Source: Micromonospora mirobrigensis (GTDB taxonomy: Bacteria > Actinomycetota > Actinomycetes > Mycobacteriales > Micromonosporaceae). From it: a stretch of 64,000 nt of DNA. Below, in pieces: positions 35,217 to 36,514 of this stretch (the first letter of the stretch is position 1; every line of letters begins with the position of its first letter). Both the position numbers and the translations under genes were made by a program. The notes below the pieces were generated by a model. It was given only the letters and a program-made list of their open reading frames with translations. It was not told the origin of the DNA and did not search any database. Location: assembly GCF_900091555.1 (NCBI RefSeq), contig NZ_FMCX01000001.1, forward strand, positions 806,001 through 870,000, given 5' to 3'.

Positions 35217-35597
35217 GTGCCCACGTACCAGTACGCCTGCACCGCGTGCGGCCACCAGCTCGAGGCGGTGCAGTCCTTCTCCGACGAGCCGCTGACCGAG
35301 TGCCCCGCGTGCGAGGGGCGGCTGCGCAAGGTCTTCAACTCCGTCGGCGTCGTCTTCAAGGGCTCCGGCTTCTACCGGACCGACTCCCGCTCCTCGGGCT
35401 CGGAGAGCAAGAGCAGCGGCCCGGGCGGCAGCACCAAGTCCGACTCGTCCTCGTCGTCCTCGTCGTCCGGTTCGTCGTCGAGCACCGGGGCCGGCGGCTC
35501 CGGCTCCTCCGGCGGTTCGGGCTCCGCGTCCGGCGGCTCCGGCTCGTCGGCCGGCGGTTCGGCGAGCAAGGCGCCGGCCGCCAGCGCCACCTCCTGA
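35217..35597 (+). CDS. FmdB-family zinc-ribbon protein with Ser/Gly-rich tail
   Basis: 126 residues. The N-terminal 45 residues form a CxxC...CxxC zinc ribbon (TYQYACTACGHQLEAVQSF, then LTECPACEGRLRKVF), named after the putative regulator FmdB but of unknown role. Residues 58-126 are a low-complexity tail of Ser, Gly and Ala. GTG 35217 is preceded by GGAGG with five bases between. The fthC-fmdB-CpaB-like order is common in actinobacteria. Confidence 0.9.
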   Translation: MPTYQYACTACGHQLEAVQSFSDEPLTECPACEGRLRKVFNSVGVVFKGSGFYRTDSRSSGSESKSSGPGGSTKSDSSSSSSSSGSSSSTGAGGSGSSGGSGSASGGSGSSAGGSASKAPAASATS

Positions 35598-35633
35598 CAC
35601 TCCCACCGGGCTGAGCCCCGGTCGGTTGGCGCC

Positions 35634-35655
35634 GAGCCCGGCCCCGGCCGGGCTC
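35634..35655 (+). terminator. hairpin downstream of fmdB
   Basis: GAGCCCGGC (35634-35642) and GCCGGGCTC (35647-35655): a 9-bp perfect stem with a 4-base loop, about 37 bases past the stop. Confidence 0.55.
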
Positions 35656-35792
35656 CGCGCCGGCTGCGGCATACCGACCCCTCCGGACTCCGCGACATCC
35701 CGCACCCGGGCCTCTCCCCCGGGCGGCACCAACAGCGGGCGGACCGCTCCCGCGGTGAAACCCGCATAGCAGGTCGAGAGCCGCCGCGGGGG

Positions 35793-35820
35793 TTGTCCAC
35801 AGGCACCCCCGTTGTCCACA
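35793..35820. promoter_or_regulatory. two tandem DnaA boxes (TTGTCCACA x2)
   Basis: Two perfect copies of the high-GC actinobacterial DnaA box TTGTCCACA, at 35793-35801 and 35812-35820, in the same orientation and 19 bases apart start to start. They lie 41 bases upstream of a TAGCCT -10 box and about 80 bases upstream of the CpaB-like gene. No dnaA, dnaN or AT-rich unwinding region is near, so this is not oriC. It may be a DnaA-controlled promoter or a titration site. Confidence 0.6.
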
Positions 35821-35860
35821 GGCCGCCCGTCGACCCGGCCGCCGAGGGTCCGCCCGCGCC

Positions 35861-35866
35861 TAGCCT
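35861..35866 (+). promoter_or_regulatory. -10 box for the CpaB-like gene
   Basis: TAGCCT with a ~30-base leader and a GGGAGGG ribosome site before ATG 35900. It lies just downstream of the DnaA boxes. Confidence 0.45.
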
Positions 35867-35899
35867 CTCCGGCAGGGCATCGACGGGCGGGAGGGTGGC

Positions 35900-36514
35900 A
35901 TGGCGGACGACGCGGGTTCACTGCGGCCGGTACGCCGGCCCCGGCTGCCGCGGGGCAGCACCCTGCTGCGTGCCGGGCTGGTGGCGGCACTGCTCGGCCT
36001 CGCCGCGGCGGTCCTCCAGACCCCGGCCGGCTGCCCGCCGGGCTCCTCGGGGGCGACATCCTCCGCTCCCGGCGCGGCGGGCCAACCTTCCCGGGGCGCC
36101 GCACCGGATCGACCCGCCGGCTCCGCGAGCGCACCGGCCGGACCGCCCGGTGAGAGCGGCACGCAGGGTGGAGCGAGCCGACCGGGCGCGGAGGGCGGAG
36201 CGGACCGGCCGGGCGCAGGTGGTGGCGCGCTGCCGCTGCCGCCCGGCGCGGTCGGCGTACCCGTCCGGCTGGCCGAGCCGGCCGCCCTCGCCGTGCTCAG
36301 GCCGGGCGCCCGGGTCGACCTGCTGGTCGCGCCGGCCGGTGGCCGGCCCGGCGAGGCCGTGCTGCTCGCCTCGGAAGCCCAGGTCCTCGACGTGGTGGGC
36401 GCGGCGGCGCTGGACGGCTCCTCGGCGCTCTACCTGGCCCTCACCCCGGGTCAGGCACGGCGTGCGGTCGGCCAGCCGGAGGGCAGTCGCTTCGCCGTGG
36501 TGGTGCGCGGATGA
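35900..36514 (+). CDS. membrane-anchored CpaB/RcpC-like (SAF-type) protein
   Basis: 204 residues: a basic head, one transmembrane helix (about 25-42), a ~70-residue Gly/Pro/Ala-rich linker, and a C-terminal domain (about 110-204) with [47 protein letters not shown]. That pattern matches the end of Flp-pilus CpaB proteins and is often annotated FlgA/SAF-like. No other pilus genes are present, so a pilus role is unproven. It is downstream of fmdB across a 302-bp gap holding a hairpin and two DnaA boxes. Confidence 0.78.
   Translation: MADDAGSLRPVRRPRLPRGSTLLRAGLVAALLGLAAAVLQTPAGCPPGSSGATSSAPGAAGQPSRGAAPDRPAGSASAPAGPPGESGTQGGASRPGAEGGADRPGAGGGALPLPPGAVGVPVRLAEPAALAVLRPGARVDLLVAPAGGRPGEAVLLASEAQVLDVVGAAALDGSSALYLALTPGQARRAVGQPEGSRFAVVVRG

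Follow-up and report, generated by a model that had tools for sequence, protein, structure and literature searches.

Paired DnaA-box-like direct repeats before a CpaB-like gene of Micromonospora mirobrigensis: a candidate operator of a competence regulon in Actinomycetes

Natural transformation in Actinobacteria was discovered decades ago, and in other bacteria the competence regulon has operators such as the ComK boxes. In a full-text search, which covered few subscription papers and no bioRxiv preprints, we found no published actinobacterial competence operator or motif, and a 2026 paper on Micrococcus luteus states, in the part of its text that was available, that the upstream signals and the cascade of competence are still to be identified (PMC12849477). 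The element described here resembles the sigma-X and CRP/Sxy operators (PMC8467076, available sections) in that a single short element recurs 5' of uptake, pilus and recombination genes in operons scattered over the genome, here with comEA/EC, ssb, recA, radC and comF behind it, but it has its own sequence and geometry, and Tad/Flp pilus genes replace the com pseudopilus. M. luteus is alike in that its transformation depends on a CpaB/RcpC-like gene, deletion of the CpaB-like Mlut_14650 lowering it 10^4-fold, and in that the comEA/EC promoter is regulated, and unlike in that the available sections mention no shared operator for its competence genes (PMC8467076). The accessible text of another study describes M. 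luteus as having no homologue of ComX or ComK (PMC4322843), and deletion of both putative (p)ppGpp synthetase genes makes its transformation nearly 100-fold lower (PMC6667448, in part). When Rhodoluna lacicola is kept in the dark, expression of comEC, dprA and the tad genes increases jointly, that of comEA does not follow, and the com genes of A. photophilum are, according to the same excerpt, not coordinated (PMC8591293). This known physiology partly fits the activator regulon that we propose below.

The locus lies in a 64-kb stretch of DNA from M. mirobrigensis, which was analysed at its full length and is called the window. Two copies of TTGTCCACA lie on the forward strand at 35793-35801 and 35812-35820, 19 bp from start to start, and they are the only matches in the window even when one mismatch is allowed; 4.8 such near-matches would be expected per window by chance, so single boxes are not enriched. 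With their flanks, which follow the family logo given below, the distal and the proximal box both read GTTGTCCACAGG (35792-35803 and 35811-35822, forward strand). An upstream element, TAGCAGGTC (35767-35775, forward; family consensus TAGCAGATC), was found by family alignment and by eye 28 bp 5' of the core of the distal box. The core of the proximal box, at G35814, lies 60 bp 5' of a transcription start predicted at A35874 (forward) from the 57-61 bp rule described below and from the -10 position; seven bases separate A35874 from the -10 hexamer TAGCCT (35861-35866, forward), which aligns with the TAGCGT/CAGGCT/CACCGT column of 76 family promoters. A scan of 35590-36000 with the sigma-70 consensus gave no promoter, i.e. 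no good -35. The start codon of the CpaB-like gene follows 26 nt 3' of the predicted transcription start. The arrangement that the initial annotation had described, two boxes on the same strand 19 bp apart and 5' of a TAGCCT hexamer and a CpaB-like gene, is thus present in all its parts. Upstream, at 35220-35597, is an FmdB-type zinc-ribbon protein with a long, Ser/Gly-rich tail of low complexity.

The gene behind the boxes (35900-36514, forward strand) is an open reading frame for a protein of 204 aa with a hydrophobic N-terminal segment. In searches for CpaB/RcpC (TIGR03177, PF16976) its match to RcpC had an E value of 0.069, below the cut-off, and there was no NCBIfam match; for its family homologues the E values were 0.019 (L199) and 0.078 (L086). 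The profile search found no SAF domain in the window protein and two family homologues, and did find one in L156, a curated CpaB of another family. The window protein nevertheless aligns with L156 over a conserved C-terminal motif, pairwise BLASTP between the two gives an E value of 0.007, and the gene of L156 also has a box pair. On these comparisons the product is CpaB-like, not a proven member of CpaB/RcpC, and we predict that it takes part in DNA uptake through the Tad pilus.

The whole genome (6.17 Mb in 21 contigs) was scanned with the reversed pattern as control, and TTGTCCACA was found in 24 copies against seven for the control. Several of these sites have a second, less perfect copy (CGTCCACAG) just behind them and a notable set of genes downstream. 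Two GTCCACA cores 16-21 bp apart (GTCCACA-N9-14-GTCCACA) occur at eight sites, against one for the reversed pattern, and all eight spacings are 18 or 19 bp. Seven of the pairs lie 5' of comEA-comEC, yraN-comM, an M23 peptidase gene, the CpaB-like gene of the window, ssd/tadZ of the tad locus, recA and an ssb paralogue, and the eighth sits inside a coding repeat; six of the eight thus precede genes of DNA-uptake, pilus or recombination type and one precedes the peptidase gene. Profiles above the cut-off identified ComEA (HHH and SLBB), ComEC (Competence domain), M23 and SSB in Pfam, Ssd as TIGR03815 and YifB/ComM as TIGR00368, and RecA and YraN were recognised by eye. By these assignments the downstream set, the M23 peptidase apart, is one of natural transformation and recombination genes, and one element stands 5' of several unlinked uptake and recombination operons of a single genome. 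A pair pattern with two mismatches gave only noise (eight sites against seven in the control), although one of its matches turned out to precede an AbiEi/DUF559-like gene. The initial annotation had argued that one box is modestly expected in such DNA and that two so close together are not, and the near-match expectation and the genome-wide excess of pairs bear this out; the count and clustering of boxes, run over the whole genome, show no random abundance of pairs. A special link to the window gene or to the fthC/galU/glp neighbourhood did not hold up, since the element recurs at competence-type genes across the genome.

Within the Micromonosporaceae the check for conservation that the annotation had called for shows the pair kept in 37 of 41 genomes at the same types of genes, with 124 matches against 12 for the control. 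The surroundings were read for 102 family pairs, from seven of the eight loci of M. mirobrigensis itself, 29 other loci among the search matches and 60 regions retrieved in addition. Eight protein clusters, named from profiles of representatives and by eye, take up 70 of these pairs: comEA, yraN and ssb with 11 each, recA 10, AbiEi/DUF559-like 8, tadZ 7, and M23 and comM 6 each. Five more were placed by eye (L055 and L120 before comEA, L099 before an AbiEi/DUF559-like gene, L028 and L086 before CpaB-like genes), and the other 27 precede other genes or ones without identification. Some pairs sit inside repeats of coding sequence (L032, L137). Genome G026 has 13 pairs by itself, some of them in tandem arrays, before genes that were not recognised as those of the usual regulon (L065, L107, L108, L109).

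For the logo and for a model of the promoter, 20 loci (24 pairs) whose downstream gene was not recognised as a regulon member were dropped. The logo of the remaining 79 promoters (78 of the 102, and L199) reads G-Y-Y-GTCCACA-G at both boxes, and in an alignment of 76 of the family promoters the extra element, with the consensus nTAGCAGATC, stands about 28 bp before the distal core. The recA promoters are without this element and have in its place the sequence TCGTACA-CC/GG-TGTTCGG (L030 of M. mirobrigensis; L061, L064, L070, L079), which we take to be an SOS-like box and which stands directly 5' of the distal box, so that recA seems to respond both to damage and to the competence factor. The sequence-only model of the 76 promoters was then run on the genome of M. 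mirobrigensis as a test of prediction. It returned the seven training sites first, and at rank 8 (E 2.3e-7) a site that the exact scan had missed, before an AbiEi/DUF559-like gene, a type already in the regulon of relatives. Rank 9 (E 7e-5) has a spacing of 12 bp and lies before an XRE-type regulator, ranks 10-12 fall in other places, the origin region among them, and rank 13 (E 0.054) precedes a second AbiEi/DUF559-like gene. The profile matches of these two proteins (AbiEi_4, MTES_1575 nuclease, DUF559) are, like those of all the AbiEi/DUF559-like proteins, below the curated cut-offs, and one such protein (L459) has none.

In the class the layout extends to many families besides the Micromonosporaceae, and 70 of 197 genomes have a pair with the 18-19 bp spacing. 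Among the matches listed we examined 79 such pairs in 71 loci, one locus coming from the phylum scan and several lying in coding repeats, and they precede tadZ, ssb, recA, M23, yraN-comM, comF, CpaB, radC, prepilin peptidase and AbiEi/DUF559-like genes, as well as unrelated ones; comF, radC, CpaB and prepilin peptidase were assigned from profiles of one or two examples each. A wider pair, spaced 28-29 bp, is found in 47 of the 197 genomes, at 91 sites against one in the control, and the 51 wide pairs examined (50 distinct) stand before the same genes and before DUF4192 and small SSB genes. That two common 9-mers merely happen to lie side by side has a negligible probability: single near-matches are expected at the rate given above, but the pairs exceed their reversed controls in genome, family and class (8 against 1, 124 against 12 and 91 against 1) and are specific for a set of genes. 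The spacing mostly, not strictly, follows lineage. The own genus has 18-19 bp pairs exclusively, genome G125 has 11 wide pairs and one narrow, and G257 and G243 have both kinds, and at comEA of Nocardia otitidiscaviarum a pair spaced 18 bp lies about one turn further upstream. Outside the class, where only the 19-bp spacing was asked for, one of 137 genomes has a pair, at a repetitive-looking locus, and in the same phylum sample none of 11 other genomes of the class has that spacing, so the scan says little about where the element ends.

A test that does not depend on the motif gives the same picture for comEA. The gene was found by way of ComEC, in 40 loci out of 187 genomes with ComEC, one to a few per family. 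Of the 38 loci with a comEA match, 32 have RTCCACA (at most one mismatch, 19 exact) 55-62 bp 5' of a possible ComEA start, against two of 38 for the reversed pattern and 2-11 of 38 in other 8-bp windows, which peak where distal boxes fall; the remaining six loci have no box at the expected place. Among the 32, 15 have a second box (at most one mismatch) 27-31 bp upstream of the first, four at 18-22 bp and two at 33 or 14 bp, and 11 have none within 12-39 bp; these 11, like the six loci, speak against a universal layout. For 19 named comEA loci, an exact box at the expected place was found in seven and a box with one mismatch in two (Jiangella, Ornithinimicrobium, Phycicoccus, Kitasatospora, Arthrobacter, two Glutamicibacter and two Micrococcus), with the reversed pattern within one mismatch in three of 16, and the other ten either have no box there or could not be scored. 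Within Micrococcus, M. lylae (exact) and M. lacusdianchii (one mismatch) have the comEA box at 58-59 bp, and a third Micrococcus (EYE_212) has only a site with two mismatches at comEA. The same genes thus carry the element in relatives, with a preferred promoter geometry.

This geometry was counted as the distance, in 5-bp windows, from the proximal core to a start codon with an open frame of 80 codons or more behind it. A start 57-61 bp after the core was found for 52 of the 102 family pairs (6-19 in other windows), for 30 of 77 class pairs with the 18-19 bp spacing (2-12) and for 36 of 50 with the 28-29 bp spacing (3-8). The proximal box is anchored, and for the distal one there are two alternative positions, which differ by one helical turn. 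In the alignment of the 76 promoters a hexamer of the TAGCGT, CAGGCT or CACCGT type stands right before the start codon, and from this position we infer that many transcripts of the regulon, those of comEA, yraN and others among them but not that of the window gene, are probably leaderless. The two TTGTCCACA boxes of the window are real and not a matter of chance, and they are one copy of this shared promoter layout.

The shared element, its geometry, its conservation and its set of targets can be read from the DNA, and on this ground we consider it likely that the pair is where an activator binds in the promoters of a competence regulon. The upstream position of the boxes, their spacings by the helical turn and the absent -35 together point to an activator that recruits RNA polymerase, and thus suggest that the direction of regulation is activation. 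A binder that reads this non-palindromic site would sit on the proximal box, centred about 55 bp 5' of the transcription start, and on another copy of the site 18-19 bp further up (28-29 bp in other genomes), and the bound pair would bring in RNA polymerase at a promoter that has a -10 of the TAGCGT/TAGCCT type and lacks a good -35. One factor could in this way co-activate the genes for uptake (comEA-comEC, comF) and for the Tad/Flp pilus (tadZ, prepilin peptidase, the CpaB-like gene), and also those for DNA processing (yraN-comM, ssb, recA, radC) and accessory nuclease-like genes. Most repressors overlap the region from -35 to +1, whereas the two boxes are found near -58 and -77 (or -87), 5' of the -35, in spacings one helical turn apart, and the lack of a -35 in the consensus scan suits an activator. 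It is thus unlikely that the pair is a repressor site, which would hold the competence genes off until the factor leaves, even if M. luteus mutants with raised comEA/EC activity under repressing conditions (PMC8467076, available sections) would agree with such a site.

Which protein would be the activator can be narrowed down to a short list. The high-affinity DnaA box of actinomycetes, as given for Streptomyces coelicolor and Mycobacterium tuberculosis, is the 9-mer TTGTCCACA (PMC4285127, Table 1, from the part at hand), and both boxes of the window match the actinomycete 9-mer TT(G/C)TCCACA exactly. Because the core equals this box, DnaA is the leading candidate, and that it directly activates a competence regulon throughout the class Actinomycetes, the AbiEi/DUF559-like and DUF4192 families included, is a proposal to which we give somewhat less than an even chance. 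The Streptomyces DnaA consensus is (T/C)(T/C)(G/A/C)TCCACA, with which the com boxes would fit. For comparison we took sites from the 900 bp that follow dnaA, in 21 genomes. With a search pattern fixing TCC[AC]CA, these dnaA-side sites have T or C most commonly at positions 1-2, and G, then A, at position 3; position 7 is C in 35% of them and position 10 is G in 66%. Among GTCCACA sites, G at position 10 is found in 83% of com boxes (131/158), 70% of dnaA-side sites (30/43; P 0.08) and 37% of the background (P 0.004 against the dnaA-side sites), while two pyrimidines at positions 1-2 are found in 96% (151/158), 60% (26/43; P 3e-8) and 45% (17/38; P 0.19), respectively. The label of DnaA boxes given in the initial annotation may well be right, given the identity of the 9-mer and the shared G at position 10, but the pyrimidines at positions 1-2 differ from the dnaA-side sites, which do not exceed the background there, and this difference counts against DnaA. 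A covariation of position 3 (G or A) between com and dnaA-side boxes is suggested in two genomes only (G048 and G313, with TTATCCACA).

The pair is thus like the actinomycete DnaA box and the promoters regulated by DnaA in its perfect 9-mers, and in a G at position 10 that GTCCACA sites beside dnaA have in common with it, and unlike them in its direct repeats at 18-19 or 28-29 bp and in near-obligatory pyrimidines at positions 1-2, where C is used freely. The main text of a review on transcriptional regulation by DnaA does not contain the word competence, a further point against DnaA. A paralogue of DnaA was considered as the regulator and rejected: Bac_DnaA_C gave a single protein in 27 of 28 genomes (two in G263), which argues against a dedicated DnaA-like paralogue. 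The dnaA gene and its adjoining origin-type boxes are on contig C18 and the window is on C7, the contigs being unordered. If DnaA is the binder, it is possible that the window gene is tied to the replication cycle. That the boxes act instead as a DnaA sink, titrating the protein with no role in the downstream promoter, found no support, and we rate it as very improbable: both boxes are perfect 9-mers as a sink would have them, but only two are present in the window, with no datA-like cluster, and a sink needs neither the preferred distance to the start nor conservation at specific genes.

Nearly as likely as DnaA, again at somewhat less than an even chance, is that the protein on the same operator is a dedicated activator with a site that only looks like a DnaA box, for instance an HTH_17 protein (excisionase/BldC-like) such as the one encoded beside cpaB of M. 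luteus. BldC-like proteins bind direct repeats, and the deviation of the com boxes from dnaA-side sites at positions 1-2 would be explained. In the M-class of M. luteus nearly all mutants were changed in a 550-bp cluster of the CpaB-like Mlut_14650 and the HTH_17 gene Mlut_14660, and raised comEA/EC promoter activity was recreated by single changes in Mlut_14660 (R64W), in its 5' region and in Mlut_14650 (PMC8467076, available sections). Of nine single changes that were reintroduced, these three, all in the cluster, recreated the parental promoter activity, another change in the 5' region of Mlut_14660 did not raise it, and Mlut_14660 could not be deleted (same sections of PMC8467076). What these sections point to is the HTH_17/CpaB-like locus and not DnaA, which counts against the latter. 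The knockout of Mlut_14650 itself raises comEA/EC activity, however, so the effect of the locus need not run via the HTH_17 protein (PMC8467076, likewise in part). In M. mirobrigensis none of the 15 HTH_17 matches lies within the four regions around comEA, comM, tadZ and ssb, and the 12 that were checked all lack RTCCACA close to where the open frame begins, hence no sign of autoregulation. We know of no HTH_17 protein with specificity for GTCCACA. In the 12-19 kb around comEA, comM, tadZ and ssb no regulator gene was recognised beside the com loci, in a set of open reading frames that is incomplete. L198 was considered as an autoregulated HTH_17 gene and set aside: by eye, its product is similar to the excisionase-like L206, which is presumably of mobile-element type, and the distance from the distal core to the first start is 69 bp and not 77.

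The shared operator is a first concrete handle on how high-GC Gram-positives may switch on natural transformation, and its preferred geometry offers a directly testable cis element together with a short list of regulators. It predicts a regulon in organisms that are seldom considered transformable, such as Kitasatospora and Micromonospora, and brings in DUF4192, AbiEi/DUF559-like, M23 peptidase and the CpaB-like gene of the window as new candidate competence genes. Should DnaA be the binding protein, competence would report on the activity of the replication initiator and be wired directly to replication control, and a rise in free DnaA, e.g. upon stalled replication or starvation, would turn on the genes for DNA uptake, the Tad pilus and recombination.

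The AbiEi/DUF559-like and DUF4192 genes (L419-L468) stand repeatedly behind the operator at the expected distance, and our full-text search found no literature linking DUF4192 with competence. Genome G342 has five near-identical copies of the 28-bp pair, which suggests a mobile or repeated gene family bearing the operator. Competence of Bacillus is under the control of Clp proteases, and in M. mirobrigensis TTGTCCACAGG and CCGTCCACA, about 22 bp apart, precede a clpC-like gene (by eye; C16:186935, L016/L235). At C18:16092 (L020/L229) a response-regulator gene is followed by a sensor-like gene (by eye); the former is preceded by several box-like sites and, directly 5' of its ATG, by the hexamer TACAGT. 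Lastly, two perfect boxes 12 bp apart stand before a small gene for an XRE-type regulator (by eye) at C16:402343 (L228).
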